From Pseudovibrio denitrificans JCM 12308 (GTDB taxonomy: Bacteria > Pseudomonadota > Alphaproteobacteria > Rhizobiales > Stappiaceae): DNA of 64,000 nucleotides. The translations under genes and the position numbers were made by a program. The notes below the pieces were generated by a model, which did not search any database, was not told where the DNA came from, and was given only the letters and a program-made list of their open reading frames with translations. The DNA lies in contig NZ_BAZK01000002.1 in the NCBI RefSeq assembly GCF_001310815.1, forward strand, positions 234,443 to 298,442. Reading direction: 5' to 3'. Positions 9,568 through 49,058 of the stretch are shown here, one piece after another (position 1 is the stretch's first letter; every line of letters starts with the position of its first letter).

Positions 9568-9667
9568 AGCATGGCTATGACAGATGAAATTTTGAGAGAT
9601 GCTCTAATGAATTGTTTTTGCGCGGATCCTTGTCCGAAAACCGGTTCCCACTTTTCGGGAATGCGCT
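9563..9667 (+). repeat. Composite extragenic repeat, copy 1 (hairpin plus CGAAAACCGG module)
   Basis: A perfect 10-bp inverted repeat ATTAGAGCAT/ATGCTCTAAT (9563-9572, 9599-9608), overlapping the livF stop, is followed after 11 bases by a palindromic module (9620-9667) with core CCGAAAACCGGTTCCCAC. This module is one of six in the window and resembles extragenic palindromes common in Rhizobiales. It lies inside the liv operon. Confidence 0.8.
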
Positions 9668-11519: not shown

Positions 11520-11597
11520 AAGCAGTTGCAGGTGAACTGCTTGCGTTTGTTTTGCGTATCTTTGCCAAAAACCGGTGTCCACTTTCCGGAGATACGC
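11520..11597 (+). repeat. Composite extragenic repeat, copy 2
   Basis: Hairpin AAGCAGTT/AACTGCTT (11520-11527, 11535-11542), then after 11 bases the module bounded by GCGTATC/GATACGC (11554-11597) with core AAAAACCGGTGTCCAC. Same orientation and layout as copy 1. It lies just upstream of the LprI-like gene. Confidence 0.75.
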
Positions 11598-16572: not shown

Positions 16573-16627
16573 CTAGAGCGTATCTTTATCCGAAAACCGG
16601 TTCCCACTTTTCGGAGATACACACTAG
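16573..16627 (+). repeat. Dispersed extragenic repeat, copy 3
   Basis: Module bounded by CTAGAG/CACTAG and GTATC/GATAC, core CCGAAAACCGGTTCCCAC. Between the MazG-like and VWA genes; its right end overlaps the VWA stop region. No leading hairpin directly adjacent. Confidence 0.75.
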
Positions 16628-41867: not shown

Positions 41868-43321
41868 ATGAGAGATATAATGGCGACGGTGGGTCCCGTA
41901 TTACGGGTGCTTGGATATTTTCTGGTTGGGCTGGCCATTTTGATGCTGGCGCCTGCATTGCTGGATATCTACTTCAGCAATCCTGACTGGATTGCGTTTG
42001 CACTTTCCTCTCTGTTTGTGGGCCTTCTGGGTCTGCTGCTTGCGGTTTCAACCGCCAACTACAAGCTTGAACATCTCACCATTCGTCAGGCGTTTTTGCT
42101 AACCACGACGTCGTGGTTCGTAATGCCGGTTTGTGGTGCGCTGCCGTTTCTCAGTCTTGGCATTGGGTTTGAGAATGCCTTCTTTGAGAGTGTTTCGGGC
42201 TTCACAACGACAGGGTCTACTGTTCTGATCGGGTTGGATGGGATGCCTCCGGGTTTGCTGTTCTGGCGATCTCTGACGCAGTGGATTGGTGGCATTGGTA
42301 TCATCGTTATGGCGATCCTGCTTATGCCATTGCTGCGTATCGGTGGTATGCAGCTGTTCCGGACTGAAAGCTCTGATCGCGGTGAGAAGATCGTGGCACG
42401 TGCTACTGATCTGACGCGTCTGATTGGCGGTGTCTACATCATGCTGACGCTGACCTGTGCGATCCTTTATGTGTTCTCTGGCATGTCTTTGTTTGATGCG
42501 GTGAACCATGCGATGACGACGCTGTCTTCCGGTGGTTTCTCGACGCATGATGCCTCGTTTGCGTACTTTGAGAGCACGGCGGCAGAGTGGGTGGCTGTGG
42601 TCTTCATGTTGGCTTCCGGTCTTCCTTTTGTTGTTCTAATCAAATCTCTGACCAAGAACCCGATGGCGCTGCTTCAGGATCCGCAGGCGCGGGCGTTTAT
42701 CTTTGTCATCATCATTCTTTCCAGCATGACGGCGCTGTATCTTGCATCGAGAACAAGTTCACGTTTGGCCGCGCTGTGGTGGAAGCGTTGTTTGTGGTGA
42801 TCTCCATCATCACTACGACTGGCTATGGCCTTGGCGATTACACGGCCTGGGGTCCTCCGATGATGGGCTTCTTCCTGATGTTGACGTTTATTGGCGGCTG
42901 TACGGGGTCGACCAGTGGTGGCATCAAGATCTTCCGATTCATCGTGTTCTTCGGCACCGTACGGGCTTACATGAACAAGATGATCCGGCCTGATCAAGTG
43001 GTGCCTGTGCGCTATGGGGATACCAAAATTACGCCTGATCTTGCGTTCTCCGTTCTGGCGTTCCTTGTTGTTTACATGGCTACGGTTGGTCTGATTACGG
43101 TTATCCTTGGTGGTCTGGGTCTCGATCTGGTGACGGCTATGAGTGCGGCGACGACTGCGGTTTCCAACGTGGGGCCGGGGCTCGGTGATGTGGTTGGCCC
43201 GGTTGGAAACTTTGCTGACATCCCAAGCAGTGCGAAGATCGTCCTTTCTGCGGCCATGTTGCTGGGGAGATTGGAGCTGTTCACTGTGCTGGTGCTGTTT
43301 AACCCTGAATTCTGGCGATGA
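41868..43321 (+). pseudogene. TrkH-type potassium uptake protein 1, one apparent frameshift
   Basis: Channel-like membrane subunit of a Trk K+ uptake system. Filter-type loops are visible (VSGFTTTGSTVLIG, MTTLSSGGFSTHDAS, ISIITTTGYGLGDY, GPGLGDVVGP). The first frame ends after LYLASRTSSRLAALWWKRCLW; adding one C at 42745 gives LYLAIENKFTFGRAVVEALFVVISIITTTGYG and joins the second frame to 43321. Corrected length about 484 residues, equal to the next gene. Start at 41868 or 41880 (MATVGPVLRVLGYF, which aligns with the paralogue). No trkA in the window. Confidence 0.88.
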
Positions 43322-43555: not shown

Positions 43556-45007
43556 ATGTTGGTTTCCATACGACCGGTTTTAAGTGTGCTTGGGTACCTT
43601 TATGTCGGCCTTGCTGCTGCCATGCTCATCCCAGCATTTGTGGATGTTGTGTCGCGTAATGCTGACTGGCAAGCCTTTATTATTTCAGCATTAATCACTG
43701 GTCTCGTTGGCATGTTGCTTATCGTTGCCATGGGTGGTGCTTTGCGTGATGGGCTGGATACACGCCAGACATTTATCCTGACAACATTGTGCTGGGTTTC
43801 TCTGCCTGCGTTTGGTGCATTGCCTTTCCTTTGGCTTGGTATTGCGTACGTGGATGCTGCGTTTGAGGCTGTTTCCGGGTTTACGACCACTGGCTCAACG
43901 GTGCTGACGGGGCTCGACTCACTTCCTCCGGGTTTGCTAGTGTGGCGCTCGCTGATGCAGTGGATGGGCGGTGTTGGCATCGTCGTTATGGCGATCGTTC
44001 TTTTGCCGTTTTTGCGCGTTGGTGGAATGCAGCTGTTCCAGACTGAAAGCTCTGACCAGAGTGAGAAGATTGTTAGTCGCTCCATCGAACTGATCCGCCT
44101 GATCAGTATGACTTATTTGCTGCTGACCAGCCTTTGTATCGTGCTTTACTGGTTCTCCGGTATGACCATGTTTGATGCCTTCAACCATGGCCTGACGACG
44201 ATCGCGACCGGTGGTTATTCCACGCATGATAACTCCTTCGGATACTTCACCAACCCGGTGACCGGCTGGATTGCTGTGGTGTTTATGATTGTGGGCGCAC
44301 TTCCGTTTGTGCTGATCATTCAGGCGCTGCGTGGTCAGCCGATGTTGCTTTGGCGTGATCCGCAGGTGCGGGCGTTTTTGTGGTTGGTGGGACTTATCTC
44401 TCTTGCTCTGACGATTTATCTGGGCACCTCCGGCAATGCAGATAGTTTTGGCAGTGCGATCCTGCAGTCTGCGTTTAACGTGATTTCTGTGGTGACCGGC
44501 ACGGGCTATGCCATGGGGGATTACACCTCCTGGGGCGCGCCGGTGATTGGTCTTGCGTTCCTGCTCAAGTTTGTGGGCGGGTGTACCGGGTCTACGACGG
44601 GCGGTATCAAGGTCTTCCGCTTCCTCGTTTTCTTTGGAACCGTGATTGCGCATATGCGCCGGATGGTGCGTCCGAACCGTGTGATTTCCGTGAGCTACGG
44701 CAATACCCATCTGACTCCTGAACTGACGTTCTCCGTTCTTGCGTTCCTCGTGGTTTACATCGGTACTGTTGGTATTCTGACGCTGATCCTGTCTCTGTTC
44801 CATCTGGATCTGGTGACTGCCGTTTCTGCTGCAGCAACCTCCGTTGGTAACGTTGGTCCAGGTCTTGGCACGATGATTGGTCCTGCTGGGAACTTTGCGC
44901 CGCTGCCTGATCCTGTGAAATGGATTTTGTGCGCAGCGATGTTGCTGGGGCGTCTGGAACTGTTTACGGTTCTCATTCTTCTGGATCCTGATTTCTGGTC
45001 CAAATAA
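43556..45007 (+). CDS. TrkH-type potassium uptake protein 2
   Basis: 483 residues, paralogue of the preceding gene along its whole length (LVSIRPVLSVLGYLYVGLAAAMLIPAFVD). Four selectivity-type loops: VSGFTTTGSTVLTG, LTTIATGGYSTHDNS, ISVVTGTGYAMGDY, VGNVGPGLGTMIGP. Intact. Tandem duplication with divergence in pore-loop residues suggests different ion affinity or regulation; it needs a TrkA-type partner from elsewhere. Confidence 0.94.
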   Translation: MLVSIRPVLSVLGYLYVGLAAAMLIPAFVDVVSRNADWQAFIISALITGLVGMLLIVAMGGALRDGLDTRQTFILTTLCWVSLPAFGALPFLWLGIAYVDAAFEAVSGFTTTGSTVLTGLDSLPPGLLVWRSLMQWMGGVGIVVMAIVLLPFLRVGGMQLFQTESSDQSEKIVSRSIELIRLISMTYLLLTSLCIVLYWFSGMTMFDAFNHGLTTIATGGYSTHDNSFGYFTNPVTGWIAVVFMIVGALPFVLIIQALRGQPMLLWRDPQVRAFLWLVGLISLALTIYLGTSGNADSFGSAILQSAFNVISVVTGTGYAMGDYTSWGAPVIGLAFLLKFVGGCTGSTTGGIKVFRFLVFFGTVIAHMRRMVRPNRVISVSYGNTHLTPELTFSVLAFLVVYIGTVGILTLILSLFHLDLVTAVSAAATSVGNVGPGLGTMIGPAGNFAPLPDPVKWILCAAMLLGRLELFTVLILLDPDFWSK

Positions 45008-45094: not shown

Positions 45095-45799
45095 ATGCGA
45101 TTTGATGTGCCGCTGGTTACAGGCCGGCTGATTAAGCGTTACAAACGGTTTCTAGCTGATGTGACACTGGATGAGGGCGGAGCGGAAATCACTGCGCACT
45201 GCGCCAATTCCGGTTCCATGATGGGGTTGAAAGAGCCGGGCATCAAAGTCTGGCTGACGCCGAATGATGATCCAAAGCGCAAGCTGAAGTATTCCTGGGA
45301 GATGCTTGAGATTGATGGTGCGATGGTGGGGATCAACACCAGCCGCCCCAACGGTCTTGTAGAAGAAGCCATTGAGGCTGGGCGCATTCCTGAGCTGACT
45401 GGTTACGACAAGCTGCGCCGTGAAGTGAAGTACGGCAAGAACTCCCGTATCGATATCCTGCTGGAAGGCGAGGGTGACAAGCGCACCTATGTTGAAGTGA
45501 AGAACGTGACGCTGGCTCGTGAAGATGGTGTTGCGGAGTTTCCTGATGCAGTAACTGCTCGCGGTGCCAAGCATCTGGATGAGCTTGCTGATATGGTTCG
45601 CGAAGGTCACCGTGCCGCTATGGTGTTTCTGATCCAGCGTGATGACTGCGATGCGCTTGTTTTGGCCCGTGACATCGATAGGAAGTACGGTGAGGCCTTT
45701 GATGCAGCTGCGAAGGCAGGCGTTGAGGTCTATGCGATTGGTTGCCGTCTGACCGCTGATGAGATCATCGCAGATCGGGCTATTGAGGTGCGGTGCTAA
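45095..45799 (+). CDS. sfsA: DNA/sugar-fermentation stimulation protein SfsA
   Basis: 234 residues. MRFDVPLVTGRLIKRYKRFLADV, CANSGSMMGL, TSRPNGLVEEAI, YVEVKNVTLA and FPDAVTARGAKHLDEL are the conserved SfsA blocks. Carries a PD-(D/E)xK-like core (EVKN) and an OB-like N-terminus, so a nucleic-acid-binding or nuclease role is proposed for the family. Complete. Confidence 0.95.
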   Translation: MRFDVPLVTGRLIKRYKRFLADVTLDEGGAEITAHCANSGSMMGLKEPGIKVWLTPNDDPKRKLKYSWEMLEIDGAMVGINTSRPNGLVEEAIEAGRIPELTGYDKLRREVKYGKNSRIDILLEGEGDKRTYVEVKNVTLAREDGVAEFPDAVTARGAKHLDELADMVREGHRAAMVFLIQRDDCDALVLARDIDRKYGEAFDAAAKAGVEVYAIGCRLTADEIIADRAIEVRC

Positions 45800-46470
45800 G
45801 GCGGATGTAAGGCTAGCCTGTCGCCCTCTTAATGGAGTGTGGAATCCTGCACTGAAATCACCACATGGCCTCCCATGCAGTGTTGAAGCTAGAAATCCCG
45901 AAAGCCGGGAGAGGCAAGGCGGCAGGCAATACCTGCGCATTTGGTTAGTAATAGAGTCTTCGGCATTGGCTACGCGCCTTGCCCGGGCATTTTGGTATGG
46001 CCAACATCGCCTCTTATCCTGAAAGACATGATAGCCGGTTTCCCGGAAGGATAGTGGCTTTGCTCAGATAAGTTTCCGTATCCGAACAGGTCCTCTACCC
46101 CTGACATGTGCTGCTCTGACCAGCAAACGCCACTGCGTGATGCCCTTCAGGTTGGGCCCTTCCTCTCAGACCATGCAGTCACGCCTGAAAATCGGTGCCA
46201 CCGGACCTTTGCAAGATGCGTTACCCCTTGCAAAAGCCCCACCCAGCCCACGACACGCTGACGGACGGTCCGCCAGCTGCCCGTCCCGTGGGCATGGGAT
46301 TAGTATGGGGGCATTTTCAAGCAAGGGGGATAAGTTTTCTTGAGTGTCGTTGGAGTGGCCGTGATCCGTTTTATCTGGAGTAGCCTTGATAGGCTGACAC
46401 GGATATGAAAAAAGCCCCGGCGGTGAGGCCGAGGCTTTTGAAACTCTTTTGCAGATTTCCGTCGGGCTGA
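45800..46470. other. 670-base gap, hairpin-rich, no protein gene recognised
   Basis: Long non-coding stretch between sfsA and gpt. The left half is packed with complementary segments: CATGG/CCATG, CCCG/CGGG, GCAGG/CCTGC, and a 9-bp long-range pair GGCAAGGCG (45913-45921) with CGCCTTGCC (45975-45983). The right half (about 46085-46330) is C-rich on the plus strand with TTTGCAAG/CTTGCAAA (46208-46234). It matches no RNase P, tmRNA or 6S signature that I can recall. Could be a structured RNA or a decayed element. Confidence 0.5.
46411..46438 (-). terminator. Terminator of the gpt transcript
   Basis: Stem AAAGCC-CGGC/GCCG-GGCTTT, followed on the minus strand by six T. 33 bases past the gpt stop. 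Confidence 0.85.
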
Positions 46471-46974
46471 CTAGCCTGCGGTATCTTTAGAGATTGGTGG
46501 CTGGAACTGCATGCCCAGATCCCATGGGAAGTACACCCAGGTGTCCTGAGAGACTTCGGTCACAATGGTATCAGCCAGATCGCGGCCCATTGGCTTGGCG
46601 TATACGGTTGCAAAATGTGCTTTTGGCAGCATTTCGCGAACAACTTTTGCTGTCTTACCGGTGTCGACCAGATCGTCAATGATGAGGATGCCTTCGCCGC
46701 CTTCAGAGCCGATCACTTTTGGATCGATTGGCTTGATGACCTTCAACTCACCCTGATCGTCGTAGTCGTGGTAAGATGCGATGCAAACTGTCTCAATGGT
46801 GCGAACACCCAGTTCACGTGCAATAATGCCAGCTGGAACAAGGCCACCACGTGTGATGGCTACAATCGCTGTAAATTCGCCTTTGTCGGCGAGGCGCCAA
46901 GAGAGGGCACGGCAATCGCGGTGGAATTGGTCCCAAGAGACCGGGAATGCTTTGGATTGCTGCTGATTATCCAT
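46471..46974 (-). CDS. gpt: Xanthine(-guanine) phosphoribosyltransferase
   Basis: Purine salvage: xanthine/guanine plus PRPP to the nucleotide. 167 residues. PRPP loop [17 protein letters not shown]-terminal [20 protein letters not shown], and base-side WVYFPWDLG. Complete. Lies 10 bases after the cinA-like gene on the same strand. Confidence 0.95.
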
Positions 46975-47760: not shown

Positions 47761-47861
47761 GATAAAGCTGTTTGACATGATCCTTGATGGAACAGACTGC
47801 TTTATCGTTTGCTTATGCGCATCTCCGAAAACTGGTGCCCACTTTCCGGAGGTCCGCTTTA
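47761..47861 (+). repeat. Composite extragenic repeat, copy 6
   Basis: Hairpin GATAAAGC/GCTTTATC (47761-47768, 47799-47806) with inner TGTT/AACA, then the module with core CCGAAAACTGGTGCCCAC (about 47811-47861). It fills the whole gap between the FAD monooxygenase and cinA-like genes and reaches the monooxygenase stop codon. Confidence 0.7.
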
Positions 47862-49058
47862 GATATCTTCGTCTTCTGGAGACCACTCATAGATCCAGTT
47901 CAACCGGTCCAGAAGCTGGCTCGGTGTGCTGGAGCGCATGACGATGTCCCGTGGTATGCGCAGCGGGAAGCCCATGTGGTAGACCCAGTCATTCCACTTT
48001 ACGAGCTTGCTCATCTTTTGGATGCGTGGACGACGAGCAGCTTCATAGGCCTGAAGCGCCTGAGGCGTTGCGCCATGTTTGTCGACCATTTTGGAAAGCA
48101 CCGCTGCATCCTCAATAGCCATAGCCGCCCCTTGCGCAGAAAACGGCAGGATGGCGTGGGCTGCATCACCGATGAGAGTGACCGGACCTTGGGTCCAGGC
48201 CGGACGGGTGTCGACCTCGCACAAGGACCAGCGTGTCCATGTTTCCGGCAGGTAGACCAGACGCAGTGCTTCCGGTGTCCAATTGCGGAAATGCTTGCGG
48301 ACCTCATCACGGCCAACGGGATGGGACCAGGTGTCTTCTTCCCAGCTTTCTTTGGTGATGGCGACGATGTTGAGTAGTTTGCCGTTTTTCACCGGGTACT
48401 GAACCAGATGCGCGTTGCGGGCGAGCCAGAGGCCAGACGTGCTGAGCAGGTGTTCCAGATTGAACGGTGGTTCTGCTGTTGCGCGGTAGGCCACAAAGCC
48501 GGTGTGCTTTGCCGGTGCTCCGCCCAGAGTGTTCTGGCGAATGCTGGAGCGCACGCCATCGGCGCCAATGAGCAGATCAAATAGTTCCGGCACACCATCT
48601 ATGCCAGAGGCAAAGGCAGCGCCGTTCAGCTTGACGGTGTCACCGCTGATCTCTGCGTTGTCGATCTTGGTGTCGAGGCGCAGGGTTACTTCTGGCGTGT
48701 TCTGAACAGCTTCGAGCAAGAGCTGCTGAAGATCTGCACGGTGGATCACATAATAAGGTGCGCCGTAGCGGTCTTCTGCGATCCGTCCCAGAGGAACCGT
48801 TGCCAGTTGAGAGCCATCCTGTCCGGAGCGAATGTTCACGCTGGAAGGGGAAACGGCTCTTGCCATGAGGGCAGGGCCCAAACCAAGGGCCTGCAGGCAT
48901 CTCATCGCATTGGGAGACAACTGAATTCCCGCGCCGACCTCGGAAAGCTCTGGAGCAGCGTCGAACAGGAAAACACTGTGGCCCTTACGGGCGAGATATA
49001 GCGCAGCTGTAAGACCGGCGATCCCGGCTCCTGCGATAGCAATATTTCTTGGTATCAT
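47859..49058 (-). CDS. FAD-dependent monooxygenase (salicylate hydroxylase/UbiH-like)
   Basis: 399 residues, group A flavoprotein hydroxylase. FAD dinucleotide motif IAGAGIAGLTAALYLARKGHSVFLFD, middle DG-type motif DLLIGADGVRSSIR, and GD motif VTLIGDAAHAILPFSAQGAAMAIEDA. NAD(P)H-using hydroxylation of an aromatic or quinone-like substrate; actual substrate unknown. Complete. Confidence 0.9.
   Translation of the reverse strand: MIPRNIAIAGAGIAGLTAALYLARKGHSVFLFDAAPELSEVGAGIQLSPNAMRCLQALGLGPALMARAVSPSSVNIRSGQDGSQLATVPLGRIAEDRYGAPYYVIHRADLQQLLLEAVQNTPEVTLRLDTKIDNAEISGDTVKLNGAAFASGIDGVPELFDLLIGADGVRSSIRQNTLGGAPAKHTGFVAYRATAEPPFNLEHLLSTSGLWLARNAHLVQYPVKNGKLLNIVAITKESWEEDTWSHPVGRDEVRKHFRNWTPEALRLVYLPETWTRWSLCEVDTRPAWTQGPVTLIGDAAHAILPFSAQGAAMAIEDAAVLSKMVDKHGATPQALQAYEAARRPRIQKMSKLVKWNDWVYHMGFPLRIPRDIVMRSSTPSQLLDRLNWIYEWSPEDEDI

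Follow-up and report, generated by a model that had tools for sequence, protein, structure and literature searches.

A dispersed family of two-domain structured RNAs in Pseudovibrio, with one copy beside sfsA

Introduction

Between sfsA (45095-45799) and a phosphoribosyltransferase-like gene (46471-46974; both genes named by inspection) in Pseudovibrio denitrificans JCM 12308 lies an interval, 45800-46470 of the window (the whole stretch of 64,000 nt that was analysed), which a preliminary description held to be non-coding and highly pairable. Does it harbor an uncatalogued structured RNA or a decayed mobile element, the two readings offered there, and which of its strands is the structured one? 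Large structured bacterial RNAs are few, and the known ones have led to ribozymes, riboswitches and RNA assemblies. Here, we show that the interval belongs to a family that is a conserved, strand-specific, multi-copy structured RNA.

Results

The structured strand is the minus strand

The 9-bp pair that had drawn attention to the interval is exact (GGCAAGGCG at 45913-45921 with CGCCTTGCC at 45975-45983), the hairpin inside it and the further hairpins close by are present, and the right half is indeed C-rich on the plus strand. The pairing potential itself is real on the minus strand, where 45846-46293 folds with -199.4 kcal/mol (z -4.61) and 0/100 shuffles equal it, but the plus strand, as it had been read, behaves like its shuffles (z +0.13; 53/100 shuffles equally good). 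Imperfect pairs give a second line of evidence. When the alignment was read on the plus strand, A-C outnumbered G-T 122 to 28 in the domain lying to the right in the window and 92 to 75 in the other, one doubtful pair giving 48 of the 75. With structures re-predicted in the minus orientation, the counts were 489 G-U versus 34 A-C and 210 G-U versus 31 A-C, and in the middle of 22 copies of the W-type subtype (see below) they were 302 versus 5. Because G-U exceeds A-C in the minus orientation, the RNA is the minus strand. Fold z-score, G-U versus A-C counts and compensatory changes concur that the structured strand is the minus strand. The predicted RNA is thus convergent with sfsA, and the phosphoribosyltransferase-like gene runs in its direction.

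The genome contains 27 copies with two conserved domains

By blastn, 39 stretches in the own genome match the interval. Covariance models of the 5′ domain (R1; 150 of 731 candidates scored) and of the 3′ domain (R2; 150 of 2342 candidates scored) gave 27 matches and 27 strong plus two weak matches, respectively, and the R1 and strong R2 matches pair one to one, giving 27 dispersed two-domain copies that span 413-507 nt from outer conserved base to outer conserved base. One weak R2 match (C3:158766-158880, 31 bits), for which R1 gave no counterpart, could be a remnant; the second was rejected because it overlaps a known copy on the opposite strand, as its complement. Between the two domains lies a middle that, by inspection of the alignment, falls into five subtypes of 7, 5, 7, 2 and 6 copies, the first two of which are merged by a distance cut-off. 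Locus L114 of a related genome (G014) carries a full copy and, after it, a truncated one that retains the 5′ half of the RNA only; remnants therefore do occur.

Alignment of the 27 own copies with 26 copies from relatives, together with the R1 and R2 models, places the conserved unit at 45846-46338 on the minus strand; the interval first described therefore holds the unit, which is narrower than that interval. Every copy has the same layout, consisting of an upstream block with a -10-like box, the 5′ domain, the variable middle, the 3′ domain, a hairpin and a U-rich tail. In the sfsA copy, all on the minus strand, the upstream block AAAACTTATCCCC (46326-46338), the sequence shared most widely across the family, is followed by the -10-like box CATACT (46302-46307; TA...T in many copies) and by a predicted RNA of ~448 nt (45846-46293), the start and end of which are taken from the first helix and the tail. 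The 5′ domain comprises helix H1 (46287-46293 with 46246-46252), which encloses helix H2 (46269-46277 with 46257-46265), and hairpin H3 (46203-46239; 46235-46239 with 46203-46207 and 46227-46233 with 46209-46215). The loop of H3, GGGGUAACGCAU, contains a UAACG that is invariant in 53 copies and that can be read, from its sequence, as a GNRA-type GUAA loop. After the variable middle module (45984-46202), here of the W-type subtype, the long hairpin H4 (45913-45983) has as its outer helix the 9-bp pair, which thus belongs to the conserved 3′ domain, followed by an inner extension with the apical motif GCCGAAGA...GCGCA. The small hairpin H5 (45896-45910), the final hairpin H6 (45873-45882 with 45859-45868) and a tail that is U-rich across the family (45846-45858) complete the unit. 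Two additional pairings were considered. The upstream UUAUC could form a pseudoknot with GGUAA in the loop of H3, but the 94.3% of cells that pair do so almost without variation and the block suits a promoter-like position better, so this pairing is not claimed; a local hairpin CAGG/CCTG replacing the long H4 extension hardly varies, and the two folds are compatible.

Compensatory changes support both domains and the variable middle

Conservation of pairing, set beforehand as the test of a structured RNA, was evaluated in 53 copies from 14 genomes of the genus against 500 shuffles and slid controls, and the 9-bp helix proved to be paired in 99.4% of cells. In the 5′ domain, 95.7% of cells are paired, 20 of the 33 pairs carry changes on both sides, and 121 double-change cells compare with 24.8 (sd 8.0) after shuffling, while slid versions pair in 39-53%. 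In the 3′ domain, 94.0% of cells are paired, with double changes in 13/34 pairs and 39 double-change cells versus 10.8 (sd 2.7), and slid versions pair in 31-42%. In neither domain did any of the 500 shuffles reach an observed value; because the copies are related, these comparisons are not probabilities. The middle shows the same pattern. In the W-type subtype, 67 double-change cells were found versus a shuffled mean of 16.3 and maximum of 31, and in three other subtypes with 6-7 sequences each the numbers were 14, 6 and 4 versus 3.7, 1.8 and 1.0. For the W-type middle, the plus strand gave some excess as well (27 versus 8.4, maximum 15), the expected outcome when the complement of paired helices is read. 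In a wider core alignment of 43 sequences from all groups, 90.2% of cells are paired and 122 double-change cells exceed the 36.7 (sd 5.8) of 500 shuffles, none of which was as high; pairs with double changes numbered 12, which 90/500 shuffles reached. Compensatory changes beyond shuffled and slid controls, as looked for in a structured non-coding RNA, are therefore present.

The upstream edge resembles a promoter and the downstream tail is U-rich

AAAACTTATCC or a close variant marks the upstream edge of nearly every copy, and ~26-27 bases past this block, directly ahead of the first helix, stands a TA...T or CATACT box. Among 76 sequences given to an offset test, 73 had the anchor, and 41 of these had TA...T at an offset of 24-28 (shuffled mean 10.45, maximum 20), with only 0-3 sequences at each of seven other offsets. 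We read the upstream block and the -10-like box as a predicted promoter. A generic sigma-70 scan of 45780-46500 found no promoter, and TTATCC as a -35 element would stand 20 nt from the -10 box, a long spacing. At the other edge, the 14 bases past the final hairpin are 47% T in the 53 copies, compared to 25% beyond, and the tail is 50% T in 23 relatives from other genera; the tail at 45846-45858 was not scored by a generic terminator scan.

The family extends to other genera and is patchily distributed

Using blastn, 14/16 genomes of the genus and 0/45 others gave a match. The R2 model, with 35 candidates scored per genome, matched in 32 of 87 genomes of the taxonomic family, i.e. 14/16 in the genus and 18/71 outside it. 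Within the genus, numbers range from 28 matches in the own genome and 24-30 in seven others (G002, G003, G004, G006, G009, G014 and G015) to 9-10 in each of G005, G008 and G010 and 1-3 in each of G007, G011 and G012, and two genomes of 3.7 Mb had no R2 match. The 18 genomes outside the genus, from Roseibium/Labrenzia and two further genera, have 1-5 matches each, 41 such matches being listed. The 5′ domain was also present in 25 of 30 of these loci examined; of the five without an R1 match, four start ≤122 nt from the contig start and one (L193) is a plain miss. Among larger loci, deep Pseudovibrio included, all 32 have both domains in the right order. Six copies outside Pseudovibrio (L203, L204, L172, L187, L197 and L199) are located at the ends of contigs, which would fit assemblies broken by near-identical copies; copy numbers there may be underestimates.

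Further away, 397 genomes of the order gave, beyond members of the taxonomic family, two weak R2 matches only (L317 and L318), which were set aside as lacking an R1 partner and 5′ domain. A pattern-scan hit in Thalassococcus (L233), inside a plus-strand ORF and without a model match, was taken as chance. Among 385 genomes of the class, R1 matched in five; apart from the own genome, these were three genomes from family f172 and one from family f61. These f172 and f61 loci share AAAACTTATCCCC or a variant of it, a -10-like box spaced about as far from it and, within the first helix, a second hairpin that is GGACCGUCC-like. A model of the 43-sequence core (R3) matched in six of the same 385 genomes, the own genome included, with ≥9, ≥10 and ≥10 matches in the three f172 genomes, which are lower bounds because ten candidates were scored per genome, and with 5 and 1 matches in f61; six f172/f61 copies match R3 by construction because they are in its source alignment. 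In f172, 12 copies from two genomes are alignable by eye over ~480 nt, the GTAACG loop occurs in 17/18 copies (shuffled 0.35) and the CCGAAG motif in 10/18 (shuffled 2.00) in the expected stretch. In f61, the loop is found in 1/6 copies (shuffled 0.09) and the motif in 2/6 (shuffled 0.84), which leaves the R3 core and the edges as the support for f61. The relation to the f172 copies is firm and that to the f61 copies weaker.

None of the Rfam families matches the element. Searching the whole window against Rfam at gathering thresholds returned two tRNAs only, and with five own copies and eight distant loci searched against Rfam 15 at relaxed E-values none reached threshold. For asX2, one sub-threshold match (E 1.5) reaches across the edge of copy L014. 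At L210 (4539-5016, plus strand), a cspA thermoregulator match (48.1 bits versus a threshold of 78) lies beside, not within, the RNA copy near uvrB. A literature search, with most subscription papers outside its reach, found no report of an RNA of this kind from Pseudovibrio or Labrenzia.

Sites can persist between species and some flanks are replaced

sfsA is present in 16/16 genomes of the genus. In seven of them the interval from sfsA to the following gene contains the element, and in eight in which this interval is covered it does not; in the remaining genome (G013), the 1.5 kb examined did not include the following gene. In G014, the sfsA site holds another middle subtype; a site can be retained from species to species with its middle altered. 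A small membrane-protein-like ORF separates sfsA from the following gene in G006 (L096) and G002 (L099); the RNA element adjoins this ORF in G002 and is missing there in G006. Recurrent neighborhoods also exist elsewhere: relatives lie 0.4-3.5 kb from aconitase (acnA) in deep Pseudovibrio and Roseibium-group genomes, 0.2-1.9 kb from uvrB in two genera and 0.2-2.3 kb from typA in one genus (one member of each cluster was named by Pfam and the rest by similarity).

In the closest relative, G009, 17 own copies have an orthologue among the 26 loci compared. In four of these 17 pairs (L021, L027, L028 and L029), one flank is replaced ≤13 nt from the element edge. At the orthologous copy L021/L119, the left gene segment is wholly different between two close species, with an acetyltransferase-like versus an antitoxin-like gene (named by eye) and the break at the element edge. 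Over 16 pairs, identity is 93.8-94.4% for the element, 92.5% for the left flank and 90.7% for the right flank.

Based on a simple ORF caller, both neighbors were called for 22 own copies, of which 9 are tail-to-tail, 8 tandem with the RNA, 4 tandem against it and 1 divergent. Pfam assigned ordinary functions to 20 neighbor proteins (e.g. chorismate synthase, ribosomal protein L19, MutS, a Der/EngA-type GTPase and FliP). Among 334 ORFs from 32 loci compared all-against-all, those that recur are accounted for by synteny, run antisense to the RNA or belong to one short ORF cluster (5 loci, mixed strands), and among 40 chosen neighbors Pfam identified no reverse transcriptase, nuclease or recombinase. 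Two other features were seen in the window. A short palindromic intergenic repeat, CCGAAAAGTGG...CCGGTTTTCGG, occurs at 9611-9667, 11541-11597, 16578-16620 and 47824-47862 and has many copies in related genomes; the RNA copies L010, L040 and L063 abut or interrupt one. A TrkH-like potassium transporter gene (41868-43321, plus strand) seems to be divided into two overlapping ORFs of 310 and 244 aa in different frames, and by inspection 43556-45007 is its intact paralogue, the split reflecting a frameshift or a sequencing error.

Signatures of transposition were sought at the copies

Flank pairs of the 53 copies, the element edges of which are approximate, gave no target-site duplication signal; the longest shared flank words averaged 4.62 versus 4.48 shuffled (35/25) and 3.98 versus 3.79 (25/15), and no repeat at a fixed position at the two edges rose above shuffles. 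Mobile elements without target-site duplications exist. Phage and plasmid records searched with the sfsA copy by blastn, and viral contigs searched with two exact patterns, gave no match. With queries drawn from the joined flanks of 23 own copies, no clean recent empty site was found for 8 copies against G009, G015 and G002 or for 10 copies against G009 and G014; the best candidate, the L034 site in G014 (L120), also lacks a neighboring short repeat.

Discussion

The best explanation for the sfsA interval is that it is one of 27 paralogous structured non-coding RNA genes, lies on the minus strand and matches no Rfam 15 entry. Of the two readings originally offered, an uncatalogued structured RNA is well supported by covariation, strand asymmetry, model relatives in other genera and families and the lack of an Rfam match, and a decayed mobile element is not supported for the sfsA copy, in which both domains are kept, as in the other 26, and pairing is conserved. 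Our working hypothesis, to which we assign a probability of about 0.55, is that each copy is a self-contained gene for a predicted RNA acting in trans. Each would be its own transcription unit, at sfsA starting near 46293 and ending near 45846, and the RNA would fold as a scaffold, in which the invariant loops of H3 (UAACG) and H4 (GCCGAAGA/GCGCA) may contact a common RNA or protein partner, the middle differing from copy to copy. Copies would arise by rare duplication, and modules would be exchanged by recombination. We count several observations against trans-acting genes: between the two closest genomes the element is barely more conserved than its left flank, flank replacement at the element edge is not predicted by such genes, the generic promoter scan was null, the tail was not scored and the -35/-10 spacing is long.

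The main rival, which we regard as possible, is a non-autonomous mobile element, in which the structured RNA or the conserved ends, i.e. the AAAACTTATCC block at one edge and the hairpin and tail at the other, would drive its own spread via a host or foreign enzyme, any cellular role being secondary. Dispersal in multiple copies in three families with a patchy distribution, conservation that is strongest at an edge, the flank changes in 4/17 orthologous pairs, presence/absence differences between species and the avoidance of divergent intergenic regions (1/22 copies) all fit this; the 53 copies, however, show no target-site duplication signal, ORF comparison and Pfam analysis of chosen neighbors identified no shared enzyme gene beside them, the phage, plasmid and viral contig searches gave no match, the own genome has nearly no fragments (one weak match) and the flanks compared yielded no clean empty site. 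A more specific version, in which a promoter-bearing RNA of ~450 nt without a protein of its own would form a selfish family of ~30 copies per genome in several alphaproteobacterial lineages, swapping middles and using the upstream block and 3′ tail as spread signals, we consider doubtful; if true, its life-style would be comparable to that of eukaryotic SINEs. That the copies are instead cis-acting 3′ elements, long structured terminators or insulators between genes with no free RNA product, is improbable: 9/22 own copies are tail-to-tail, 17/22 lie downstream of a gene in the direction of the RNA and hairpins stand at the end, but the structure goes far beyond the needs of a terminator and is conserved in internal domains, the copies have their own upstream block with a -10-like box in a fixed place, and the generic scan did not call a terminator. 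Strong structure and covariation would suit a riboswitch-like leader of the next gene, and yet we give this reading very little credence because the next gene downstream shares the direction of the RNA in only 9/26 own copies, such genes are always >100 nt away and unrelated, and at the sfsA site the next gene is the convergent sfsA itself.

A family that numbers ~27 copies per genome, occurs in several alphaproteobacterial families and matches nothing in Rfam 15 would be a structured RNA gene repeated to an unusual degree. It would mean either that cells require multiple versions of a single scaffold, or that an RNA gene has come to multiply without a protein of its own; because the hosts are culturable marine bacteria, some with one or two copies, both readings are testable.

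REP, RIME-like repeats and MITEs are dispersed, intergenic, foldable and without a protein, and the Pseudovibrio RNA is alike in these respects. It differs from them in being much longer and in having strand-specific structure, many compensatory changes, a promoter-like block and no target-site duplication signal. The large RNAs OLE, GOLLD and ROOL have one or few copies per genome. The Pseudovibrio RNA is unlike them in its ~27 dispersed copies per genome, exchangeable middle and lack of an Rfam match. According to the available portion of the source, OLE, GOLLD and ROOL resemble the Pseudovibrio RNA in extending over hundreds of nucleotides with an ornate fold backed by comparison and in having no protein product, function not being established for all of them (PMC12286853). 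SmelA075/SmelA099 of Rhizobiales, as far as the accessible part of their description goes, share with the Pseudovibrio RNA several copies per genome, an occurrence in related bacteria, modular hairpins and trans-encoding, and are set apart by that description as short repeats of one hairpin, whereas the Pseudovibrio RNA has two domains and ~450 nt (PMC3927594).
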